From assembly GCA_022600955.1 (NCBI GenBank), contig JAHZJK010000029.1, positions 1 through 64,000 on the forward strand: a DNA stretch of 64,000 bases, written 5' to 3'. This DNA comes from Gammaproteobacteria bacterium (lineage in GTDB: Bacteria; Pseudomonadota; Gammaproteobacteria; Steroidobacterales; Woeseiaceae). Shown here piece after piece: positions 2,919 to 14,890 of the stretch. The position numbers were made by a program, and so were the translations under genes. A model generated the notes under the pieces. The model saw only the letters and a list, made by a program, of their open reading frames with translations, had not been told where the DNA came from and did no database searches. Numbering within the stretch: position 1 is the stretch's first letter; every line of letters starts with the position of its first letter.

Positions 2919-4115
2919 TCAGGCGCAGGCCGCTGCAACAGGTGCCGGCGCTTGCTGTGCTGCGGCGGTGTCGAGGGCACGCAATATGTCTGCCAGCAGA
3001 TCCTCACTGGCTTCGAGCCCGACCGACAATCTGATCAGATTTGGCCGTATGCCTGCGACTTCCAGTGCGGCCTGACTGAGCGGAGCGTGAGTCATCGATG
3101 CAGGATGACAGACCAGGCTCTCTACACCGCCAAGTGATTCCGCGAGGGAAAAGAACGCCAGATTTTCAACAAAGCTGCGCACGGCCCGCTCGCCACCTGC
3201 GAGTTCAAAACTAACCATGCCACCGAAGCCACGCTGCTGGCGTCTGGCAATCTCATGGCCGGGGTGCGCCTCAAGACCCGGGTAGTACACGCAGTCCACC
3301 GAGGGATGATCGTTTAACACATTGGCAACGAGACCCGCGCTTTCTTCATGTTGTTTGATGCGCGGATGCAATGTCCGGATGCCACGAAGTGTCAGAAAGC
3401 TATCGAAAGGCGCTCCGGTAATGCCGATGCAATTAGCCCAGAACGTGATCTGCTCAGCCAGTTCTTCGGTCGCCGCAACAACGCAGCCACCTACAACATC
3501 GCTATGACCGTTTATGTACTTGGTCGTTGAATGAATGACGAGATCGGCACCAAAGTCGATCGGGTTCTGCAAGGCCGGCGACAGGAACGTATTGTCGACC
3601 GCAAACAACGCCCCGCTTGCTGCCGTAATCTTGCCGATCTCTTCAAGGTCGACAATTCGCAGCAATGGGTTCGAGGGTGTCTCGGTTAACACGATCTTCG
3701 GACCGCACTCACAAGCCTGTGTGAATGCCTCTGTGTCCGTCTGGTCTACGAACAGAACGTTGAACAGGCCCTTTCTGGACTGTTGTTCGAAAAGACGGAA
3801 GGTCCCGCCATAGCAATCGTGCGGTGCAATGATGGTATCGCCCGGACGAAGAAACTGGGTTAGCAGTGTCAGGGCAGCCATTCCGGAGGATGTCACAACA
3901 GCACCCGCGCCTCCTTCAAGCTCCGCTAACGCATCTGCAAGCGCGTCGCGCGTCGGGTTCCCGGACCGGGTGTAGTCGTATTGCCGCTTGTCGCCGAAAC
4001 CAGCGAACGCAAAATTGGATGAAAGATGCAATGGCGGCACAACAGCACCGTGCTGTGTATCTGATTCAATAGATGCACGTACGGCACGAGTGGCTTTGCT
4101 GGCTGAGAATGTCAT
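2919..4115 (-). CDS. metB: Cystathionine gamma-synthase-type PLP enzyme
   Basis: This is a Cys/Met-metabolism PLP enzyme of 398 residues, the normal size. It carries the family segments YDYTRSGNPTRDALA (substrate and PLP contacts), VDNTFLSPALQNP (PLP-ring Asp) and the Schiff-base lysine in STTKYINGHSDVVGG. By sequence alone, cystathionine gamma-synthase, gamma-lyase and O-succinylhomoserine sulfhydrylase are hard to separate. The SAM-I riboswitch in its leader supports a biosynthetic, methionine-repressed role, so metB is preferred. The likely ribosome binding site is GCGGAG, about seven bases before the ATG. Transcribed alone, convergent with leuB. Confidence 0.85.
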   Translation of the reverse strand: MTFSASKATRAVRASIESDTQHGAVVPPLHLSSNFAFAGFGDKRQYDYTRSGNPTRDALADALAELEGGAGAVVTSSGMAALTLLTQFLRPGDTIIAPHDCYGGTFRLFEQQSRKGLFNVLFVDQTDTEAFTQACECGPKIVLTETPSNPLLRIVDLEEIGKITAASGALFAVDNTFLSPALQNPIDFGADLVIHSTTKYINGHSDVVGGCVVAATEELAEQITFWANCIGITGAPFDSFLTLRGIRTLHPRIKQHEESAGLVANVLNDHPSVDCVYYPGLEAHPGHEIARRQQRGFGGMVSFELAGGERAVRSFVENLAFFSLAESLGGVESLVCHPASMTHAPLSQAALEVAGIRPNLIRLSVGLEASEDLLADILRALDTAAAQQAPAPVAAACA

Positions 4116-4147
4116 GGTCGGTCTCCGCTAAACGATTCCAATTACTA

Positions 4148-4154
4148 CTCATCG
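4148..4154 (-). promoter_or_regulatory. Possible competing strand for riboswitch P1
   Basis: On the minus strand, CGATGAG at 4148-4154 is perfectly complementary to CTCATCG (4337-4343), the 5' strand of riboswitch P1. The normal P1 3' strand is TGATGAG, which gives six Watson-Crick pairs and one G-U. The downstream copy could therefore form a seven-pair alternative helix that breaks P1. It lies about 32 bases before the metB ATG. The switching role is inference. Confidence 0.4.
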
Positions 4155-4220
4155 GAACCCTGCGAAGCCCGCAAGGGAGGGGTGTACTGCCCTTCACCCA
4201 CTACGGGTGCTGCAGTAGCC

Positions 4221-4343
4221 CTCATCATTCGATGCCTTCAGTAAACTGAACTGGCATCGCAGGAGTTGGCACCTTTTCGGAGTGGTTAGCTCCGCTGGTT
4301 GCCCCGGCGTCGTCGGGCCTATCCCTCGACCGGTCTCGATGAG
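4221..4343 (-). ncRNA. SAM-I (S-box) riboswitch in the metB leader
   Basis: Read on the minus strand, the leader has the SAM-I core. P1 is CTCATC (4338-4343) pairing with GATGAG (4221-4226). Between them are the conserved GAGGGATAGGCCCGACGA, CGGGGCAACC and AAGGTGCCAACTCCTGC segments, a P3 helix CGGAG/CTCCG, and a P4-like hairpin CCAGTTCAGTTTACTGAAGG. It ends about 105 bases before the metB ATG. No U-tract terminator follows, so control is probably at translation or by a non-classical terminator. Identification rests on motif order and the paired P1 and P3 arms. Confidence 0.93.
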
Positions 4344-4444
4344 TTTCGCGAAGTGTATGCGCGACGACCGGCACGCGTCAAGTACCTGGTTCAAACTAAA
4401 AAAGTAACGACAGAAACCTTATGCAAACAAATACTTGCTATCGC

Positions 4445-4488
4445 TGTAATGATGTAATAACGTGCTAGTACATTAATACATCATTACA
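4445..4488. promoter_or_regulatory. 44-bp palindromic operator candidate before the his regulator gene
   Basis: Two perfect 12-bp arms, TGTAATGATGTA (4445-4456) and TACATCATTACA (4477-4488), flank a 20-bp centre containing GTGCTAGTAC. Over the full 44 bp, 19 of 22 base pairs obey dyad symmetry, centred on CTAG. Known TrpR operators also have CTAG cores, and the next gene encodes a TrpR-family protein, so autoregulation and control of the his genes is the simple reading. The element ends 3 bp before the first possible ATG (4492). TTGCTA at 4435-4440 with TAACGT 17 bp downstream is a weak promoter candidate that the palindrome would cover. Confidence 0.7.
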
Positions 4489-4491
4489 ATT

Positions 4492-4818
4492 ATGAAACCC
4501 AATCGCCACGAAACCGAACGCCAGCAGACACGTGCAGAGAACGATATGTTTGAGGCCATCATTACGTTGCAGACCGCCAGCGAGTGCCGAAACTTCTTCA
4601 AGGATCTGTGCACTCCGGCGGAGCTGCAGGCCCTGGTCGATCGCTGGCAGGTCGTCGAGTATCTGCAAAAAGACCTGCCTTATCGCAAAATCCACGAGCT
4701 CACTGGCGTAAGCGTTACAACCATCGGACGCGTCGCACGCTGCCTCGTCGACGGCTTTGGCGGCTATCAAACAGCACTTGACCGCAAATCAGAAACTGCG
4801 GCGCACTCCTCGCACTAA
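4492..4818 (+). CDS. TrpR-family regulator (YerC/YecD type), probable his operon regulator
   Basis: A 108-residue protein of the TrpR superfamily. The conserved stretch ECRNFFKDLCTPAELQALVDRW is followed by a helix-turn-helix around residues 62-84 (PYRKIHELTGVSVTTIGRVAR). Family members bind DNA as dimers. The gene sits directly upstream of hisG (11-base gap) on the same strand and behind a palindrome with a CTAG centre. A role as histidine-operon repressor is therefore inferred; the ligand could be histidine or an intermediate. The start is unsettled: ATG 4492 touches the palindrome and lacks a ribosome binding site. ATG 4546 (residue 19) has a weak AGAGAA before it and keeps the whole conserved domain. 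Confidence 0.85.
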   Translation: MKPNRHETERQQTRAENDMFEAIITLQTASECRNFFKDLCTPAELQALVDRWQVVEYLQKDLPYRKIHELTGVSVTTIGRVARCLVDGFGGYQTALDRKSETAAHSSH

Positions 4819-4829
4819 GGAAAAACCCA

Positions 4830-5732
4830 ATGGAAACCCCTGAGCAGCGCATAAAAGTTGCGGTGCAGAAGACCGGCCGCCTGACAGATCACTCTATCGA
4901 CCTGCTGGAGCGTTGTGGCCTGGTGCTGACAAAGAGCAAGGACCAGCTAATCTGTTACGGCGAGAACATGCCCATCGACCTCCTGCTGGTACGCGACGAT
5001 GATATCCCGGCGCTGGTCGGCGACGACGTTTGTGACCTCGGCATAGTCGGCCTGAACGTGGTTGAGGAAAAGCGTCTGAGCATGGAGCAGAACGGCAGCA
5101 AGGGACAGTTCAAGCAAATATTCGAATTGGAATTCGGTCATTGCCGACTGTCCATCGCGGCACCCGACGAGGCACGTTATGAAGGACATAACTCTCTCGA
5201 AAAGACTAAGATTGCAACAAGTTACGTTGGTTTGCTCACTGACTTTCTAACTAAGAACAACATCGATGCAGAACCGGTCTATTTTTCCGGCGCGGTTGAA
5301 ATCGCGCCCAAACTTGGCCGTGCAGATTTTATCTGCGACCTGGTATCTACGGGCAGCACTTTGAAAGCGAATGGTCTTAGTGAAGTAGAGACCCTGCTGC
5401 AGAGTGAGGCTGTAGTCATTCAAACGCTTGCACCTCTCAGCGACGAAAAACAGGCTCTTGTGGACAAGATTCTGCAGCGCCTCGCCGGGGTTTTGCGGGT
5501 GCATGACAGCAAGTACATCATGCTGCATGCGCCTCGTTCGGCGCTGGCCGACATTCGTGCATTGCTGCCAGGCTCCGAAGCACCGACCGTAATGCCGCTG
5601 GAAGGCAACGATGACAAAGTGGCCATTCACGCCGTGTGCCGCGAGAACGTCTTTTGGGAGACACTCGAAAACCTGAAAGCCGCGGGCGCCAGCTCTTTGC
5701 TGGTTTTGCCTGTGGAAAAAATGTTGGCCTGA
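4830..5732 (+). CDS. hisG: ATP phosphoribosyltransferase, long form
   Basis: HisG condenses ATP with PRPP, the first step of histidine synthesis. At 300 residues it is the long form, which carries a C-terminal histidine-binding regulatory domain and needs no HisZ. The PRPP loop is seen in CDLVSTGSTLKANGL (about residues 170-185). The C-terminal third (residues 225-300) matches the ferredoxin-like regulatory domain in position. The start ATG is preceded by AAGGA with suitable spacing. Feedback by histidine is expected from the family. Confidence 0.97.
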   Translation: METPEQRIKVAVQKTGRLTDHSIDLLERCGLVLTKSKDQLICYGENMPIDLLLVRDDDIPALVGDDVCDLGIVGLNVVEEKRLSMEQNGSKGQFKQIFELEFGHCRLSIAAPDEARYEGHNSLEKTKIATSYVGLLTDFLTKNNIDAEPVYFSGAVEIAPKLGRADFICDLVSTGSTLKANGLSEVETLLQSEAVVIQTLAPLSDEKQALVDKILQRLAGVLRVHDSKYIMLHAPRSALADIRALLPGSEAPTVMPLEGNDDKVAIHAVCRENVFWETLENLKAAGASSLLVLPVEKMLA

Positions 5733-5734
5733 GC

Positions 5735-7042
5735 ATGACGCTTCCTATCTATAGCTGGTCTGAGCTTAGCCTCAACGAGCGGTCTGAAATATTGCGGCGA
5801 CCGGCTGCGAAGCTGGACGGCTCAATTCGGGCAGATACCGCGGCAATACTTGAGCAGGTCAGGAGCGAGGGTGACGCCGCGGTTTGCGCACTCACAGCGC
5901 GGCTTGATGGCGCATCCGTCGAAAACTCAAGAATCAGCAATACTGAGATCGACGCCGCAATCGCGGCATTGGACTCCGAGCAGGTTGCTGCGATTGATCT
6001 GGCAATCAGAAACGTACGCACCTTTCACACGGCACAGCTCAGCAAACCAATCCGTGTTGAAACGATGCCTGGTGTGGTGTGCGAGCGCCGCAGTCATGCG
6101 ATCGACTCCGTTGGATTGTATGTGCCGGCGGGCACTGCGCCCCTGCCCTCAGCCGCAGTGATGCTGGCAGTTCCGGCCGTGCTGGCTGAGTGTCCGCGAA
6201 TCATCATGTGCACCCCGCCGCGGCCCGACGGCTCGGCTGATCCCGCGGTCCTGACCGCCGCCACACGAGCGGGCGTGACCGAGATCTACAAGATTGGTGG
6301 CGCCCAGGCGATCGCTGCAATGGCCTACGGCACCGAGTCGGTACCCAGGGTCAACAAGCTGTTCGGACCGGGCAATGCATGGGTGACGTGCGCCAAGTCA
6401 TTGGTCAGCGGTGATCCCGACGGTGCCGCGATCGATCTTCCCGCTGGCCCATCCGAGGTGCTGGTCATCGCAGACGAAAACGCGTCAGCAGAATTCGTTG
6501 CGGCCGATTTGCTGTCACAAGCAGAACACGGAGTTGACTCACAGGTCATCCTGCTAAGCTCAGATAAGCAACTGGCCGTGGACGTACAGCACGAAGTGCA
6601 ACAACAACTCTCTGGATTGTCCCGTGCCGAAATAGCGACACAGGCGCTGCAGCACTCCCGTATCGTTCTGGTTGATGCGGTGGCGACAGCGGTAGACATC
6701 AGCAACCAATATGCACCCGAACATCTGATTCTGCAGGTAGTTGAAGCGCGAGAGGTGCTGTCCCGGTGCCGTAATGCGGGCTCAGTCTTCGTCGGTCCGT
6801 GGACACCGGAATCTGTAGGGGACTACTGCAGCGGAACCAATCACGTATTACCGACCTATGGTTATGCCAGCAGTTTCAGCGGCCTTGGTGTTGATCAGTT
6901 TCTACGGCAAATGACAGTACAGGAAGTGAGCCGTGATGGGCTCAGACAGCTCAGCAACGCGGTCATTACTCTCGCGACGATGGAAGGGCTGGACGCGCAC
7001 GCGGCAGCCGTCAGCCGTCGTCTGGGTGAGGGGCCGGCATGA
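5735..7042 (+). CDS. hisD: Histidinol dehydrogenase
   Basis: HisD oxidises histidinol to histidine in two NAD+-dependent steps and is a zinc enzyme. The protein is 435 residues when started at ATG 5735, two bases after the hisG stop. The frame stays open about 100 bases further upstream inside hisG, but that part is not homologous and is rejected. Signatures include IYKIGGAQAIAAMAYGT, the GPGNAWVTCAK and DLPAGPSEVLVIAD segments, and the zinc-site region SQAEHGVDSQ. YAPEHLIL and GTNHVLPT follow later. Confidence 0.97.
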   Translation: MTLPIYSWSELSLNERSEILRRPAAKLDGSIRADTAAILEQVRSEGDAAVCALTARLDGASVENSRISNTEIDAAIAALDSEQVAAIDLAIRNVRTFHTAQLSKPIRVETMPGVVCERRSHAIDSVGLYVPAGTAPLPSAAVMLAVPAVLAECPRIIMCTPPRPDGSADPAVLTAATRAGVTEIYKIGGAQAIAAMAYGTESVPRVNKLFGPGNAWVTCAKSLVSGDPDGAAIDLPAGPSEVLVIADENASAEFVAADLLSQAEHGVDSQVILLSSDKQLAVDVQHEVQQQLSGLSRAEIATQALQHSRIVLVDAVATAVDISNQYAPEHLILQVVEAREVLSRCRNAGSVFVGPWTPESVGDYCSGTNHVLPTYGYASSFSGLGVDQFLRQMTVQEVSRDGLRQLSNAVITLATMEGLDAHAAAVSRRLGEGPA

Positions 7043-8106
7043 GTATCATGCAACGGGCACGGCCGGAAATTCAGGCGCTGGTCGCCTACAGTGCAGCCGC
7101 GCAGGTGACCGATACGATTCGGTTGAACGCGAACGAATCACCACACACGACGAACAGCAGCGACTACCGCAGGCCACTGAATCGCTACCCGGAGGTTCGG
7201 CCGCAGAATTTGCAGACAGCGCTAGCGGCCCGCTTCGGTTGTCCGACCGAGCAGTTGCTCGTGACCCGCGGTTCCAGTGAGGCGATCGACCTGATAATCA
7301 GGGCCTTCTGCAACGCAGGTGTCGACAATGTGCTGAGTCCATCGCCTTCATTCGAGATGTACCGGCACTACGCCCTCGTGCAGGGTGCCGGGACGCTGCA
7401 GGTCCCTACGCTCCCTGAGGATGATTTCGCAGTTGATGTAGATGCACTTATCGATGCCCGCACATCCACAACCAAGCTTGTCTTCGTTTGCTCGCCAAAC
7501 AACCCCACGGGCACACCACTGCCTCGCGCGCAATTGCTCAAATTACTTGAGGCATGCCGAGACCAGTCCGCCGTTGTCGTCGACGAAGCGTATATTGAGT
7601 TCGGTCAGGAAACGTCGTCGATGGAACTACTGCAGCAGTGGCCGAACCTGCTTGTATTGCGCACGCTGTCAAAAGCTTTAGGTTTCGCCGGCGCTCGTTG
7701 TGGCGCCGTTGCTGCGTCGCCCGATATCATCGAAATGTTGAGCGCCGTGCAGGCGCCGTATGCGCTGGCGACACCCGTTGTCGAATGCGTCGAAGACGCG
7801 TTGCAGGAAGATCAGATCAGGCGAGCAGACCAGTTTGTCAAAGAAATCGTGGGCGAGCGCGAGCGCTTGCGAAAAGCCATTGGTGAATGCCCTTTCGTGC
7901 AAAAAGTCTGGCCAAGCGAAGCGAACTTCTTCCTCGTCAAGATGGATGACGCTGCAAGCGTCGTGCAACGCTGTGCAGAACAAAACATCCTGTTGCGATA
8001 TTTCGGCGACAGCTTGCCGGGCTGTATACGAATTTCGGTCGGAAGTCGCAGCGACAATGACCGCCTTCTAGCTGCGCTGGCAATAATCATAGAGGATGCG
8101 TCATGA
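7039..8106 (+). CDS. hisC: Histidinol-phosphate aminotransferase
   Basis: HisC is a class I/II PLP aminotransferase converting imidazole acetol phosphate to histidinol phosphate. It has 355 residues. Seen are the N-terminal RLNANESPH, the segment FVCSPNNPTGTPL, the PLP-phosphate and Asp/Tyr region VVVDEAYIEF, and the Schiff-base lysine in LRTLSKALGFAGARCG. The C-terminal substrate arginine lies in CIRISVGSRSDND. The ATG overlaps the hisD stop by 4 bases (ATGA), and the stop overlaps hisB in the same way. Confidence 0.97.
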   Translation: MSIMQRARPEIQALVAYSAAAQVTDTIRLNANESPHTTNSSDYRRPLNRYPEVRPQNLQTALAARFGCPTEQLLVTRGSSEAIDLIIRAFCNAGVDNVLSPSPSFEMYRHYALVQGAGTLQVPTLPEDDFAVDVDALIDARTSTTKLVFVCSPNNPTGTPLPRAQLLKLLEACRDQSAVVVDEAYIEFGQETSSMELLQQWPNLLVLRTLSKALGFAGARCGAVAASPDIIEMLSAVQAPYALATPVVECVEDALQEDQIRRADQFVKEIVGERERLRKAIGECPFVQKVWPSEANFFLVKMDDAASVVQRCAEQNILLRYFGDSLPGCIRISVGSRSDNDRLLAALAIIIEDAS

Positions 8107-9182
8107 GCAGCAAGGTACTTTTTATCGACAGGGATGGAACGCTTGTCGAAGAGCCGGAAGACTTTCAGGTCGATACGCTGGACAAGATCCGACTTGTCCC
8201 GGACGTCATTGCGGCACTACTGGAACTCGCCCGCCATGGCTTTCGATTTGTGATGGTGAGCAATCAGGACGGGCTCGGTACCGATAGCTTTCCTGAGTCA
8301 GCGTTTAATACCTCCCACAGTTACATAATGAGCCTGTTCGAATCGCAGGGCATCCGGTTTGACGAGGTGTTCATCTGCCCTCACCTGCCGGATGAAGGCT
8401 GCGATTGCCGCAAGCCGCGGACTGGGCTCCTGACGCGGTATCTCGCAGCAACCAAACTTGATATTAGACATTCCGCAGTCATCGGTGATCGCCCGACCGA
8501 CATGCAGCTTGCCGACCGAATCGGCGTGCAGGGACTCCTCGTCAACTGCGACGATTCGGCCGCTATCAGCTGGCCCGAAATCGTCTCACGTCTGTGTTAC
8601 TCCGATCGCGTTGCGCAGGTTGTTCGTGAGACTCGAGAAACAAACATCACTGTTGCTGTAAACCTCGATTCTGCTAAGCAGATAGATGTCGCCACCGGGA
8701 TCGGGTTTTACGATCACATGCTGGAACAGATCGCCAAGCACGGCGGCTTTAGTCTCACCGCAAAGTGCTCGGGGGATCTGCAGATCGATGAGCATCATAC
8801 CGTCGAAGATACCGCCATTTGTATAGGACGCGCTATGCGCGAAGCCCTTGGGAACAAGTTCGGAATAGCGCGGTATGGGTTCCTGTTGCCGATGGACGAA
8901 AGTGAAGCACAAGTCTCACTGGACCTGTCTGGGCGTGCCGCGTTCGAATTCAGCGCAGATTTTCCACGAGACACTGTCGGAGAAATGTCAACAGAGATGG
9001 TCGAGCACTTTTTCCGCTCATTTGGAGACTCGCTGGGAGCTGCACTGCATGTGCACGTTCGCGGAGAGAATACTCACCACATGGTGGAAGCCTGTTTCAA
9101 ATCTGTCGGACGGGCATTGCGCCAGGCGATTGCACAGTCAGGAACAGATTTACCAACGACGAAGGGAACGCTCGACGGATGA
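8103..9182 (+). CDS. hisB: Bifunctional histidinol-phosphatase / imidazoleglycerol-phosphate dehydratase
   Basis: The 359-residue protein is the fused enterobacterial-type HisB. Residues 1 to about 165 are a HAD phosphatase with the nucleophile motif FIDRDGTLVEEP. It also has the zinc-loop cysteines CPHLPDEGCDCRKPRTG and the motif VIGDRPTDMQLA. From about residue 180 it is the IGP dehydratase, with the manganese-binding histidine motifs DHMLEQIAKHGG, DEHHTVED and the later VEHFFRSFG and HHMVEACFK. It thus supplies two pathway steps. It is coupled to hisC and hisH by 4-base overlaps. Confidence 0.97.
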   Translation: MSSKVLFIDRDGTLVEEPEDFQVDTLDKIRLVPDVIAALLELARHGFRFVMVSNQDGLGTDSFPESAFNTSHSYIMSLFESQGIRFDEVFICPHLPDEGCDCRKPRTGLLTRYLAATKLDIRHSAVIGDRPTDMQLADRIGVQGLLVNCDDSAAISWPEIVSRLCYSDRVAQVVRETRETNITVAVNLDSAKQIDVATGIGFYDHMLEQIAKHGGFSLTAKCSGDLQIDEHHTVEDTAICIGRAMREALGNKFGIARYGFLLPMDESEAQVSLDLSGRAAFEFSADFPRDTVGEMSTEMVEHFFRSFGDSLGAALHVHVRGENTHHMVEACFKSVGRALRQAIAQSGTDLPTTKGTLDG

Positions 9183-9778
9183 CACACGTCGCCATTATCG
9201 ATAGCGGTGGCGCGAACATTGCGTCAGTGCGTTATGCATTTGATCGACTCGGGGCCACCTCAGAACTAACGACCGATGCGGAGACCATTCGCTCCGCACC
9301 GCGAGTACTATTGCCTGGCGTCGGTGCGGCCAGGGATGCGATGCGTCGATTGCGCGCCGCCGGCCTGACTGACGTTATTCGCGAACTACAGCAGCCTGTA
9401 CTCGGGATATGTCTTGGCATGCAGCTTATGTGTGAAGCCTCTGAAGAGGAAGACACGGATTGCCTGGGTATATTCACTGCTGCGGCAAAGCAATTAAGCG
9501 GTTCGCCCGATCGGCCAGTGCCGAACATGGGCTGGTGTGCCACCAGCGCGAGGAGCCCTCACCCGCTGCTGCGACACATCGACGATGGAAGCTATTTCTA
9601 CTACGTGCATGGTTACGCGATTCCGGTTACGGCGCAGACTGTAGCAACGGCAGAGCACTCGCAGAGTTTCTCCGCAATTCTGGCGCGGGACAACTTTGTT
9701 GCGGCCCAGTTTCACCCGGAACGCTCGTCTGATGTCGGCGCCAAACTGTTGCAGAATTTCGTGAGATCGTCCGCGTGA
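9179..9778 (+). CDS. hisH: Imidazole glycerol phosphate synthase, glutamine amidotransferase subunit
   Basis: HisH hydrolyses glutamine and channels ammonia to HisF. The 199-residue protein is a class I amidotransferase. The nucleophile cysteine lies in GICLGMQLM, the catalytic His-Glu pair in AQFHPERSSD, and the oxyanion loop in LLPGVGAARDAM. The start ATG overlaps the hisB stop. The N-terminal segment reads IDSGGANIASV, where many homologues have an Asn-Leu pair after Gly-Gly/Gly-Asn, a small variation only. Confidence 0.96.
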   Translation: MTHVAIIDSGGANIASVRYAFDRLGATSELTTDAETIRSAPRVLLPGVGAARDAMRRLRAAGLTDVIRELQQPVLGICLGMQLMCEASEEEDTDCLGIFTAAAKQLSGSPDRPVPNMGWCATSARSPHPLLRHIDDGSYFYYVHGYAIPVTAQTVATAEHSQSFSAILARDNFVAAQFHPERSSDVGAKLLQNFVRSSA

Positions 9779-10515
9779 AGATCATTCCGGCAATAGACAT
9801 TAAAGACGGTCGTTGTGTACGTCTGTTTAAAGGAGATTTCGAGCAGACCACGGAATACAGCGCCGATCCTGCCGCGGTCGGCAGGCGTTTCTCAAAGCTC
9901 GATGTGCAGGATATTCATATCGTCGATCTCGACGGTGCGAAATCCGGTACGCAGTCCAATCATGAAATAGTTTCGAGCATCGCGTCGGAGTCTGATCTCG
10001 ATATTCAGCTGGGTGGCGGTATCCGCACGCGGGAGGATGTTGCGCAGTGGCTTTCTGTCGGGGTACGTCGCTGTGTCGTTGGCAGTGTCGCGATAAGCTC
10101 ACCGTCGCTGGTGCTGGAATGGATGCAGGAGTTTGGCGCCGACAGCATCGTTTTGGCGCTCGACGTCAAACTTGGCAGCGATGGCATACCATTGCTTACG
10201 ACGCATGGCTGGACACAGGATTCCGGACTACCGCTCTGGGATTGCCTGACCGCGTACGACAATGTGCCGCCTCAGCATGTGCTGTGTACCGATGTTGCCC
10301 GGGATGGCGCGATGGCCGGTCCCAATACCGAGTTGTATTCACGCATCATCGAGCGCTACCCGGCATTACAACTACAGGCATCCGGTGGCGTTCGCAATAT
10401 CGAAGATATGCAACAGCTGCGCGAAATCGGTGTGCCCGCTGCAATTACAGGAAGAGCGCTGCTGGATGGCAAAATCACCGAGAACGAGGTGGCATCATTC
10501 CGGCAAAGCGCATAA
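9775..10515 (+). CDS. hisA: ProFAR isomerase
   Basis: HisA is the (beta/alpha)8 barrel isomerase of the pathway's fourth step. It starts with GTG at 9775, overlapping the hisH stop by 4 bases. It begins [22 protein letters not shown], where the catalytic Asp is that of AIDIKDG. Other marks are the phosphate-binding [11 protein letters not shown], the second catalytic Asp in [14 protein letters not shown], and [11 protein letters not shown]. The length of 246 residues is standard. The 3' end overlaps the probable hisF start by 19 bases. Confidence 0.97.
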
Positions 10516-11264
10516 TTCCCTGCCTGGATGTACGCGATGGTGTTGTCGTCAAGGGCGTGCAGTTTCGTAACCACAAGGTCGTGGGCGACATACTTGCGCT
10601 TGCGCAGCGTTATTGCGACGAAGGTGCAGACGAGCTTGTGTTCTACGACATTACTGCGAGCCCTGACGACCGCACGGTTGACCGCAGTTGGGTCGATCGT
10701 GTTGCCTCAGTGATCAATATCCCGTTCTGCGTCGCCGGCGGGATCAGGTCTCTCGCAGACGCGGAAGATGTATTGAACAAGGGCGCCGACAAGATTTCCA
10801 TTAACTCCCCCGCACTCGCCAATCCGGATCTCATCGGTGAGCTGGCGACGCGCTTCGGCTCGCAATGCATCGTCATTGGCATCGACAGTCGTGCAGAAAG
10901 CGGTGACTATTGTGTTTATCAGTACACCGGGGATCCAGACAGGACACGCGCCGCCGAACGCCTTACGAGCGACTGGATTGCAGAAGTGCAGCGACGAGGA
11001 GCCGGTGAGATTGTGCTGAACTGCATGAACCAGGACGGCGTTCGACAAGGCTACGACACAGCCCAAATTGCATCGATGAGAGCTATCTGCAGCGTACCTC
11101 TGATTGCCTCGGGTGGCGCTGGCGCCCTGCAACACTTCGCAGAAGTTTTTAGTGAGACGAACGTCGATGGCGCCCTGGCGGCCAGTGTGTTTCACAGTGC
11201 GCAAATCCATATCGCCGACCTGAAGCGTTATCTCGCAGATCGCGGTATAAGTATTCGACCCTGA
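10497..11264 (+). CDS. hisF: Imidazole glycerol phosphate synthase, cyclase subunit (AUU start)
   Basis: HisF is the barrel partner of HisH and makes IGP and AICAR. The homologous region begins [13 protein letters not shown], yet no ATG, GTG, TTG or CTG lies in frame for over 100 bases upstream. The ATT at 10497 gives [12 protein letters not shown], which puts the catalytic aspartate at position 11, exactly as in canonical HisF. A good ribosome binding site (GAGGTGG, 10486-10492) precedes it by 4 bases. ATC at 10494 is the only near alternative. Phosphate-site motifs CVAGGIRS and [13 protein letters not shown] are intact. The 255-residue length is normal. Confidence 0.93.
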
Positions 11265-11274
11265 GGAAACCGGC

Positions 11275-11580
11275 ATGAGCCACGCAGACATCGCATTCTT
11301 CACCGAGCTCGAAGAAATCATTCATACTCGACTTCGTCACCCGACAAATGACAGTTACACTGCTCGACTGCACGCAGCAGGTACCAAACGACTGGCACAA
11401 AAAGTCGGGGAGGAAGGACTGGAAGTCGCACTCGCAGCAACCGCCGGCGACAAGCAAGAAGTTGTCGACGAGGCAGCGGATCTTGTCTACCACCTGGTTG
11501 TGCTACTGGCAGACCAGGGCCTGCGCCTTGGCGATGTAGCGGACCGACTCAAGGCACGCCATGCCGCCAAGCCTGGATAG
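11275..11580 (+). CDS. hisE: Phosphoribosyl-ATP pyrophosphatase
   Basis: HisE hydrolyses PR-ATP to PR-AMP, the second step. The 101-residue protein is all-helical and of the MazG/HisE fold, with KRLAQKVGEEGLEVALAA and the metal-binding EVVDEAADLVYHLVVLL. It stands alone, without the HisI cyclohydrolase domain found fused in enterobacteria. It follows hisF by 10 bases with GAGGAAA as the ribosome binding site and is the last his gene here. It is convergent with the GST gene, 8 bp away. Confidence 0.96.
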   Translation: MSHADIAFFTELEEIIHTRLRHPTNDSYTARLHAAGTKRLAQKVGEEGLEVALAATAGDKQEVVDEAADLVYHLVVLLADQGLRLGDVADRLKARHAAKPG

Positions 11581-11588
11581 TCCGCCTG

Positions 11589-12185
11589 CTAGGTGGCCTC
11601 GACCGCGGCCATCGCCCTTTCGTAAGCGGGACGAGCAACGCACCGGTCCGCGTAAGCATCCAGATTGTGGCTGTTCGGCAACATGTTAAACATGCGCATG
11701 AAAATTGCGCTGGACCCAAGCATTACGTCGGCAGCCGTGAACTGATCGCCAAGAATCCAGTCGTGACCTTCGAGCGCGTCGTCGAATGTCTTGATCATCG
11801 TGTCAAAGTCGCCCCAGCCACTGCGTGCCTTGTTGCTTTCGACATTATTGAGTTTCTCAGACATCGCCGGCTCAACGACGGCCGGCGTATACATGCACCA
11901 ATACAAAAACTTGCCGCGCGAAGGGTGCACTGGCATCGGTGCCAACGTCCCACTGCAGTAGCGATCAGCGATATAGATGCAGATGGCCGCAGACTCTGAC
12001 ATCGAAGCATCACCGTCTTTTAACGCCGGTACCTTGCCCATTGGACTCGCTTCCAGGAACTCGCCGTTGTCCCCAGGTTGATCAGTACCAAGGTCGACTA
12101 TCTCTGACTCGTAATTTACCCCGGCTTCCTCGAGCATCCAGAATGCGCGGGGAGAACGTGTTTGTGGTGCCCAGAAAAGTTTCAT
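11589..12185 (-). CDS. Glutathione S-transferase family protein
   Basis: A 198-residue soluble GST-fold protein. The N-terminal thioredoxin-like half (residues 1-80) begins with LFWAPQTRSPRAFWMLEEAG. It carries the glutathione-binding pattern GKVPALKDGDASMSESAAICIYIAD, with cis-Pro and the Glu/Ser that bind the gamma-glutamyl group. The helical C-terminal half includes WILGDQFTAADVMLGS, the N-capping motif. The substrate is unknown. The ATG overlaps the lysAC stop by 4 bases, so it is probably co-transcribed with lysAC, although no functional link to lysine synthesis is evident. Confidence 0.9.
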   Translation of the reverse strand: MKLFWAPQTRSPRAFWMLEEAGVNYESEIVDLGTDQPGDNGEFLEASPMGKVPALKDGDASMSESAAICIYIADRYCSGTLAPMPVHPSRGKFLYWCMYTPAVVEPAMSEKLNNVESNKARSGWGDFDTMIKTFDDALEGHDWILGDQFTAADVMLGSSAIFMRMFNMLPNSHNLDAYADRCVARPAYERAMAAVEAT

Positions 12186-14824
12186 ATGACGATTTCTCTT
12201 GCGACTTCGCGTCGATTGTATTGTGAGCTCATGACAAAGCCATACGCGCCCGCATTGGCGATCAGGATAACATCACCTTCGACGGTGGGTGGTAGCAGTC
12301 GATCACTGCCAAGCCGGTCACCGGTCTCACAGATCGGTCCAACGATTGTAACGGTCTCGCTCGGCGCCTGGTCCGCGCGAGACAGATTTACAATCTCGTG
12401 GTACGCACCATAAAGCGCCGGGCGAATCAGGGAGTTCATACCGGTACCCACGCCTATATAACGCATCTCCCCTTTGCCCTTTGTTTGCGTTACGCGTGTC
12501 AGCAAAACTCCGGCGCGGGCGACCAGGAAACGTCCGGGCTCGAGCCAGAGATTAAACTGTGGATAGGTTTCCTTAATTTCAGCTAGCGTATCGTCCAGTC
12601 GCTCGAGGTCGAAATCCCTGTCGCCAGGTTTCTCTGGCACACCAAGGCCACCGCCGAGATCTATTGTCTTTACGCTTGGGAACAACTCGGCAATTTGCAC
12701 CAGTTCTCCGGCAACGCTGCGCCAGTTATTCGGATCGAGAATGCCGCTGCCGCTATGCGCATGTATACCGACAACTCGCGCGCCCGCGGCGTCAACCAGT
12801 CGGGCAAGTTCGCTAACCTCAAATCTCGGCACACCGAACTTCGAATGTACACCCGCTGTCTTGACGTGCTCATGATGTCCACGCCCCTGTCCCGGATCAA
12901 CGCGCACAAACAGGTCCTTGCCCTTAAAAAGCTCCGGCCACGCCTGTAGCGGATAAAGATTGTCCAGCGTGACCTGCAAGCCCTTATCCAGGCCCCACTG
13001 ATACTCGTCCCGCGGTGCGAAGTTCGGCGTGAACAGGATGCGGCTCAAGTCGATGTCAGGAATCACCTCCTGCAACCAGTCAACCTCCCCCGGCGAGACG
13101 CATTCAAAGTCGACGCCAGCGGCACTTAGCGTACGCAGCAGTTCAGCATTGAAGTTGGCCTTAACTGCGTACAGGATACGGTCAATATTCTTGAGTCCCA
13201 GCAGGCTATTCGCGGCATTCGCAACGCTCTCGCGATCGTACACGTAAGCGCTGAGCTGTCCATCCGCCAGCGCCAGCAATTCGTCGCGCTTTTGCATCCA
13301 CCACGTATCAGCCGCTCTGGCTACCGGCTCCTCGCCCGCAAACAGTCGCTCCCAACTACTGCCGAATACACTCGATGCGCCCTTCTTGCGAATGATCGAG
13401 GCATGCAACTTGCTCACCAGTCGGGGGCCTTGCTGCTTGTCGACAACGAAGCTCAGATTAAGGTCATTCGCAGCCTGCGACATCAGGTGGATACGTTCTT
13501 CTTCGAAGACCTCCAGGGCGGGAGCCAGGCGCGGAATAATCGTTCTGATCTTGCGTCCTACGAGGCTGACTGCAGAACAGTTTGCGATAACGCGTACCCG
13601 GCAAAGCTGCTCAAGGTCATCGACCAGGGACTCTTCAACATCGTCGGGTAACGCGCCGTCAGACGTATCAATCGACACTGTTACATTCGTTTCCGAGGTC
13701 GAGATCAGATCGACCGAAACGCCGTTGTCACTAAATGCGGCGAATGCCCTCGCAAGGAAACCAACCTCGTGCCACATCCCCACACCGTCCATTGAGATCA
13801 GCGTCAGACCATTGCGGATGCAAATCCCTTTTACCTGAGGCTCGACTTCCTCTGTCACCGACGAAATGACCGTACCGCTGATCTGCGGATCGGTGGTACT
13901 GCGGATAAAGATCGGGATGCCGTATTCACGCGCTGGGGAGATGCAACGTGGATGCAGGACTGAACTGCCGGCGGACGCCAGTTCCTGGGCCTCGTCGTAA
14001 TGCAGTGCTATCAACAGGCGGGCCGAAGGCACATCCCGCGGGTCCGCCGTGAACATGCCCGGAACGTCTGTCCAGATTTCGAACCGACGTGCTTGCAGGC
14101 GTGCCGCGAAATAGGCGGCAGACGTGTCGGAACCACCCCGACCCAGCAATACCGTCTCTCCGTTGCGGTTTCTCGCGATAAAACCCTGCGTCAGGATAAT
14201 TTTCTTGTGTGCGGCGAGCCTGGTCTGGAGATCCTTATCGGGCCTGAAGTCACAAGTCGCAGAGAGGTAGGACTGAGGCCCCTGGGCTGTATTCCTGGAT
14301 ACGCTGGTCAGGAGCTCTCTCGCATCGACCCACTGTACGGGCAGTCCTGCCCGCGACAAGTATTCGGCACCAAGCCGGGTGGACATCAACTCGCCCAGCG
14401 CCATGATCCGAACTCGAACCCGCACACTGACTTCGCGAATCAGCCGAACGCCGGCGACGAGTTGCTCGAGCTCGTGCAGTGTCTCGTCGAGCAAAGCTGC
14501 ACCATCAAGCCCCAGATCATCTGCGAGCGCATAGTGCTGTGTACGAACCTGCTCCAGCACCACGCTGGGATCGTCCGACACCGCAGTCTTGAGAAGCTCT
14601 TCCAGTGCATTGGACACCCCACTGAGCGCAGAGTGAACCACAACGGGCTGCAACCCTTCAGCAAGGCGCTGTCGTAGCAAAGTTGCCACGGTAGACCAGT
14701 TGCTCGCACTCGACACGCTGGTGCCGCCAAATTTCAGAACAACCCAGGGTGAGGTCGTTACTTCCGGGGGCGCGCCCAGCAAACCACTGTCCTCAAAAAC
14801 TGCTTCCGAAATCTCGCGGTTCAT
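12182..14824 (-). CDS. lysAC: Bifunctional aspartate kinase / diaminopimelate decarboxylase
   Basis: One chain of 880 residues joins the first and last enzymes of lysine synthesis. The N-terminal kinase starts with WVVLKFGGTSVSSASN, has the LLGRGGSDTSAAYFAARL segment, and two ACT-type regulatory repeats to about residue 460. The C-terminal PLP barrel carries the lysine in ILYAVKANFNAELL, then GGGLGVPEKPGD and the late CETGDRL. Such fusions are known in Xanthomonas. I choose ATG 14824; a TTG 33 bases upstream is in frame but lies against the leader terminator. Feedback by lysine through the ACT domains is expected. It is coupled to the downstream GST gene. Confidence 0.95.
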   Translation of the reverse strand: MNREISEAVFEDSGLLGAPPEVTTSPWVVLKFGGTSVSSASNWSTVATLLRQRLAEGLQPVVVHSALSGVSNALEELLKTAVSDDPSVVLEQVRTQHYALADDLGLDGAALLDETLHELEQLVAGVRLIREVSVRVRVRIMALGELMSTRLGAEYLSRAGLPVQWVDARELLTSVSRNTAQGPQSYLSATCDFRPDKDLQTRLAAHKKIILTQGFIARNRNGETVLLGRGGSDTSAAYFAARLQARRFEIWTDVPGMFTADPRDVPSARLLIALHYDEAQELASAGSSVLHPRCISPAREYGIPIFIRSTTDPQISGTVISSVTEEVEPQVKGICIRNGLTLISMDGVGMWHEVGFLARAFAAFSDNGVSVDLISTSETNVTVSIDTSDGALPDDVEESLVDDLEQLCRVRVIANCSAVSLVGRKIRTIIPRLAPALEVFEEERIHLMSQAANDLNLSFVVDKQQGPRLVSKLHASIIRKKGASSVFGSSWERLFAGEEPVARAADTWWMQKRDELLALADGQLSAYVYDRESVANAANSLLGLKNIDRILYAVKANFNAELLRTLSAAGVDFECVSPGEVDWLQEVIPDIDLSRILFTPNFAPRDEYQWGLDKGLQVTLDNLYPLQAWPELFKGKDLFVRVDPGQGRGHHEHVKTAGVHSKFGVPRFEVSELARLVDAAGARVVGIHAHSGSGILDPNNWRSVAGELVQIAELFPSVKTIDLGGGLGVPEKPGDRDFDLERLDDTLAEIKETYPQFNLWLEPGRFLVARAGVLLTRVTQTKGKGEMRYIGVGTGMNSLIRPALYGAYHEIVNLSRADQAPSETVTIVGPICETGDRLGSDRLLPPTVEGDVILIANAGAYGFVMSSQYNRREVAREIVI

Positions 14825-14850
14825 GTTTTCGTTATCCGATCGTCTTTCAA

Positions 14851-14890
14851 AAACCAAAAAAAAACCCGCTAGGACGTACCTGGCGGGTTT
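14851..14890 (-). terminator. Rho-independent terminator in the lysAC leader (possible attenuator)
   Basis: On the minus strand AAACCCGC (14883-14890) pairs with GCGGGTTT (14862-14869) over a 13-base loop, followed by a run of about ten U with the stem's own. It ends only about 30 bases before the lysAC ATG. It can serve as the ilvD terminator. Because no promoter fits in the remaining 30 bases, lysAC transcripts must cross it, which suggests attenuation or leaky read-through. No lysine riboswitch consensus is recognised upstream. Confidence 0.85.

Follow-up and report, generated by a model that had tools for sequence, protein, structure and literature searches.

A probable HisR operator of overlapping, 8-bp-stepped sites ahead of the hisR-his operon in a Woeseiaceae genome

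INTRODUCTION

What is the role of a 44-bp inverted repeat that ends just ahead of a TrpR-family gene, at the head of a histidine operon? The repeat lies in the first 64,000 nucleotides of a contig (JAHZJK010000029.1) from a gammaproteobacterium of the family Woeseiaceae, a stretch that we call the window. An earlier note, made from the sequence alone, had proposed that the protein binds the repeat and controls its own gene and the his genes, that the long arms hinted at two dimers or an added contact, that the CTAG core was the feature shared with TrpR operators, and that the unstudied ligand could be histidine. We found that the observation is correct and mostly explained already: this is most likely a HisR operator before the hisR-his operon, a regulation known in outline, to which the extended 8-bp array described here is a modest addition.

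RESULTS AND DISCUSSION

The palindrome and the regulator gene

The dyad covers positions 4445 to 4488 and matches in 19 of its 22 pairs (22-nt arms at 4445-4466 and 4467-4488, 86% complementary). The outer 12 bp of the arms are perfect, CTAG at 4465-4468 forms the center, and three bases separate the repeat from the ATG at 4492; these features, as the earlier note had given them, were all confirmed. The dyad centered at 4466|4467 has the top score of all 44-bp dyads in the 64-kb window, and the highest score reached in 40 first-order Markov shuffles was 17, so that every shuffle stayed below the observed 19.

Profile searches and a structure model identified the adjacent gene (4492-4818, plus strand) as hisR, coding for a TrpR-related protein of the YerC/YecD family with 108 amino acids. 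The protein passes the family cut-off of TIGR02531 (73.5 bits against 42.2) and has a match to PF01371, the only gene with such a match that we found in the genome. Its AlphaFold2 model (mean pLDDT of 90.6) consists of six helices in an all-helical TrpR-type fold, for which the best Foldseek hits were the YerC-type structures 3frw, 3kor, and 3g1c (E values from 2e-6 to 8e-5), followed by Escherichia coli TrpR. A TrpR of tryptophan regulation was ruled out by the score against the TrpR equivalog model (28.8 bits, under the cut-off of 67.25) and by the neighboring genes, which are his and not trp genes. By sequence family, the product of 4492-4818 is the HisR of Ashniev et al. 2022, who gave the family this name (PMC9413887). 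Of 50 loci, a set that includes the present one, 46 begin the frame with M or V at the position corresponding to M1, mostly as MKPNR; the alignment therefore places the start at ATG 4492 rather than at 4546.

The operon begins with hisR and continues as hisGDCBHAFE, all on the plus strand: hisG (long-form ATP phosphoribosyltransferase, 4830-5732), hisD (5735-7042), hisC (7039-8106), the bifunctional hisB (8103-9182), hisH (9179-9778), hisA (9775-10515), hisF (matched region 10518-11264; the exact start may differ), and a stand-alone hisE (phosphoribosyl-ATP diphosphatase, 11275-11580), which closes the run. The remaining gene hisI (PRA-CH) is on another contig (G000:C23:122751-122975) and has no HisR site among the pattern matches. 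Divergent from hisR there is a cystathionine gamma-synthase gene (2919-4115, minus strand) preceded by a SAM riboswitch (RF00162, 4219-4345, minus strand; 71.4 bits, gathering threshold of 44.4). Downstream of the operon, an 891-aa frame (12182-14857, minus strand) resembles, by eye, a fused aspartokinase and diaminopimelate decarboxylase.

Conservation of hisR and its site

Of 60 genomes, the present one among them, 52 have a match to hisR, as do 244 of 296 within the order; the figures for the class (23 of 276) and the phylum (41 of 397) both include weak, TrpR-like matches. From the 60-genome set we read 50 of the 52 loci, leaving out G053 and the truncated G003, and added 80 named loci (the top-ranking ones among 573 or more confirmed), which come mainly from Woeseiaceae and other uncultured Gammaproteobacteria. 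The combined set holds 107 distinct loci, with hisG 279 to 633 bases downstream, and 106 of them could be scored (L019 is too short). In one locus (L016, G009:C122) hisR is in frame with hisG as a single 391-aa frame, either a real fusion or an assembly indel.

As a search pattern we used TGTANTARNNNNYTANTACA, the published 20-bp consensus symmetrised in the present analysis, with 14 informative positions. The motif lies upstream of hisR in all 106 scored loci, at 12/14 in 7, 13/14 in 44, and 14/14 in 55 of them, its best register beginning 96 to 22 bases ahead of the gene start. Lack of conservation in related genomes, which the earlier note had named as an outcome that would count against it, was therefore not what we saw. 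The CTAG core fared otherwise: at the place of the dyad center, 49 aligned loci read YTAR, most commonly CTAA, with YTAR-like steps every 8 bp, and the alignment marks CTAG as incidental and not as a conserved feature.

Outside the order we scored 27 more distant hisR loci: 21, across nine families, carry a site that reaches 10/14 or more, and no site at this threshold was found in the other six (L171 and L173 to L177). The last five are alphaproteobacterial loci of one family with hisR-hisG and no TGTA/TACA site. Upstream of hisR in four of them there are TCCACT/AGTGGA-like inverted repeats, possibly another type of HisR operator.

Genomes of the order that lack hisR provide a comparison from the opposite side; we examined 20 of the 52. 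Sixteen of the 20 have no match to the present HisG either, which may reflect loss of the operon, a different form of HisG, or assembly gaps, and in another (G813) the contig ends within the HisG match. In three genomes of a single family (f12; L219 to L221), hisG stands directly behind leuB. These loci have no HisR site, the best motif score being 8 to 10, with neighbors of 4 to 5, far upstream inside leuB. Regulator and site are jointly absent in this family.

In its own genome the site stands alone. The 20-mer at 4453-4472 is the sole perfect match to TGTANTARNNNNYTANTACA in 3.86 Mb, and the 17 further places with two mismatches compare with 16 for a reversed-pattern control. Because the genome-wide scan found nothing elsewhere beyond this control level, and none at hisI, the HisR regulon of this genome looks local.

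An array of overlapping registers

A dyad search and an alignment with 48 other loci resolve the stretch 4445-4488 into 8-bp-stepped half-sites, TGTAATGA TGTAATAA CGTGCTAG TACATTAA TACATCAT TACA, a candidate HisR operator array. By motif scoring, the best 20-bp register (4453-4472) matches the symmetrised motif at 14/14, a second (4461-4480, shifted by 8 bp) at 12/14, with two mismatches to the 20-bp pattern, and a third (4469-4488, shifted by 16 bp) at 11/14. An extra left half-site, TGTAATGA at 4445-4452, belongs to a register (4445-4464) that reaches only 8/14. At 44 bp (20 + 3 x 8), the array of the window thus holds three registers plus one half-site on the left. This half-site, which completes the 44-bp dyad, shows no general conservation across the 49 aligned loci; a TGTATTAR-like left block is seen in a few relatives (e.g., L030 and L034).

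The ungapped alignment of the 49 upstream regions reads TGTATTAR YGTACTAA YRYRTTAA TACATTRR TACA, with a YTAR step each 8 bp, GTA on the left side, and TAC on the right. Plotted against the shift from the best site, the mean motif score rises from a background near 4 to maxima of 9.6 and 9.95 for a shift of 8 bp and of 6.1 and 6.7 for 16 bp. Part of this excess is built in, because registers that overlap have letters in common, and we allowed for it with a shuffle control that keeps the best 20-mer and shuffles the flanks together with its four central bases. Within the order, the better neighboring register scored 11.3 against 6.4 by chance (103 of 107 loci, omitting L019, which is too short, and L037, L041, and L115, which are located where the scanned stretch ends), and 97 of the 103 had a second copy scoring 10/14 or more. 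The control corrects for shared descent only as far as thinning to at most 65% alike, after which 69 of 74 upstream regions still had a second register scoring 10 or more. Outside the order, 19 of the 27 loci entered the control (L163 and L164 are at a stretch end; L171 and L173 to L177 score below 10); their neighboring register scored 10.0 against 6.4 by chance, 15 of the 19 exceeded 95% of their own shuffles and 4 did not, and 13 had a second register scoring 10 or more and 6 did not.

The number of registers is not the same everywhere. Among 101 of the 107 loci, registers scoring at least 10 form runs of two in 47 loci and of three in another 47; 5 loci have one such register and 2 have a run of four. 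The center of the best 36-bp dyad falls at -8, -4, 0, +4, or +8 bp from the center of the best register in 100 of 101 loci, i.e., the symmetry center hops by half a step between loci while the 8-bp phase remains unchanged. Because these distances are multiples of 4 bp, we read the conserved feature as a ladder rather than a fixed palindrome. Several loci in the families f26 and f180 resemble a single strong 20-mer with weaker neighbors, so the ladder, as read from the motif scores, varies in length between loci.

A putative promoter overlapped by the array

On the plus strand, TTGCTA at 4435-4440 is a putative -35 element; TTGC occupies this place in most aligned loci, 18 bp before column 0 of the array. 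From spacing only, TAACGT at 4458-4463, 17 bp past TTGCTA and inside the array, would be the -10 element. A scan with the sigma-70 consensus found no sigma-70-like site. The upstream TTGC is likewise in phase with the registers: measured from the best register, 69 of the 105 TTGC or TTGA occurrences within 40 bp have an offset of 2 modulo 8. It is since TTGC and its spacing are conserved that we propose TTGCTA/TAACGT as a putative promoter, with a transcription start near 4470.

Proposed mechanism and alternative explanations

We consider it probable (about 80%) that 4445-4488 is the operator of hisR-hisGDCBHAFE, bound by HisR with histidine as two to four dimers side by side, the multiplicity being suggested because the array is built from 20-bp sites that overlap at an 8-bp step. 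When histidine is plentiful, HisR, a dimer of the TrpR fold, would bind this stretch, and its dimers would fill the overlapping sites next to each other and cover the promoter. By this overlap HisR would repress the histidine pathway together with its own gene, making repression self-limited. The long dyad would then arise as a side effect of the registers being even in number. Comparative evidence and published work on HisR both support the proposal of the earlier note that the adjacent protein controls its own gene and the his genes, and also its suggestion of an operator longer than one dimer.

The most serious competitor is a conventional operator in which one HisR dimer sits on the 20-bp core (4453-4472) and the symmetry on either side is decoration or provides a minor contact. 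A 20-bp motif is what has been described, and a 20-bp site was tested for a Firmicutes HisR (PMC9413887); the E. coli trpR operator binds TrpR one to one (PMC7518442); and eight loci outside the order (L144, L148, and L165 to L170) consist of one perfect 20-mer with neighbors of only 8 to 10/14. Within the order, however, a second register is the rule (97 of 103 loci), only 5 of 101 loci have a single register of at least 10 and 49 have runs of three or four, and the window itself scores 12 and 11 in its second and third registers, all of which makes a single dimer unlikely here.

Could the repeat act in RNA instead, as a transcript hairpin that hides the hisR start or as an attenuator? The start codon adjoins the dyad, and the RNA fold of the stretch reaches -16.1 kcal/mol (z of -3.6 against shuffles), but any DNA dyad of this size yields a comparable fold, and the site fits the motif of the DNA-binding protein encoded next to it. 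Moreover, the dyad center shifts by 4-bp steps between relatives and the distance from register to gene is as variable as described above. An RNA switch was rejected, the hairpin being attributed to the DNA dyad itself, and the sole Rfam match at 4000-5000 (E up to 1) being the SAM riboswitch on the opposite, minus strand; we regard an RNA element as very improbable. Least credible of all is a palindrome due to chance or serving another regulator, for example, one that controls the divergent methionine gene (2919-4115). Nothing specific speaks for it beyond the AT-richness of the intergenic DNA, and against it stand the 40 of 40 shuffles that the dyad beats, its motif in every scored locus, and its disappearance together with hisR in family f12; the divergent gene, for its part, has a SAM riboswitch of its own.

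A broader reading seems somewhat favored: gammaproteobacterial HisR would act as a cooperative row of dimers on ladders with an 8-bp step and two to four registers (20, 28, 36, or 44 bp), phased with the promoter, with lineages varying the number of rungs. Were this true, the published 20-bp site would be one rung, and the length of the ladder would determine how abruptly the his operon is shut off by histidine. It offers a countable prediction, namely, that HisR dimers should number the same as the 8-bp steps.

Comparison with known systems

HisR has been described before the his operon in Proteobacteria, with histidine as corepressor (PMC9413887). The part of the earlier suggestion that named histidine therefore fits the comparative and published evidence, while the word "unstudied" was wrong, both the family and its corepression being treated in that paper. 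Histidine-stimulated DNA binding was demonstrated there with HisR of Ruminococcus gnavus, a Firmicutes protein; in the literature consulted it is the only HisR with this property shown, and by analogy we predict it for the HisR of the window. The two kinds of protein share sequence family and fold, as seen with the YerC/YecD structures 3frw, 3kor, and 3g1c, and differ in the recognition helix, which reads GASTATISRV in these Firmicutes proteins and GVSVTTIGRV in the window. The Firmicutes HisR motif, cacTTTAnnnnnnTAAAgtg, also differs (PMC9413887).

The HisR regulon published for Proteobacteria gives the site as one 20-bp palindrome (PMC9413887), in contrast to the array considered here, with its two to four registers at 8-bp steps. 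In the main text of that paper the words "overlapping" and "dimer" are absent and "tandem" is applied only to riboswitches and leader codons, and in the open-licence literature that we searched we found no published 8-bp HisR array. With our data, the HisR system extends to Woeseiaceae and their relatives, a large uncultured group in which each scored locus has a site.

The closest parallel to the array is found in the operators of E. coli TrpR (trpEDCBA, aroH, and trpR), which serve a protein of the same fold and in which 20-bp registers can likewise be repeated at an 8-bp step, although the ligand is tryptophan and the targets and the motif, TGTAcTnGTnnACnAgTACA, are others. Tandem binding of TrpR has been studied on synthetic operators (PMC8745587). 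Scored with the TrpR motif, the trpEDCBA operator has two registers at an 8-bp step with 13 and 12 of 16, aroH has 14 and 10, and trpR has a single register of 13 with neighbors of 7 and 6. TrpR occupies the E. coli trp operator as tandem dimers with an 8-bp step; multiple binding at aroH and trp was reportedly described by Kumamoto in 1987, and tandem TrpR binding has been solved in the structure 1trr. Thus, E. coli TrpR operators have one or two strong registers, whereas HisR arrays have up to four, offering natural operators of graded length for studies of cooperative repression in the TrpR fold.
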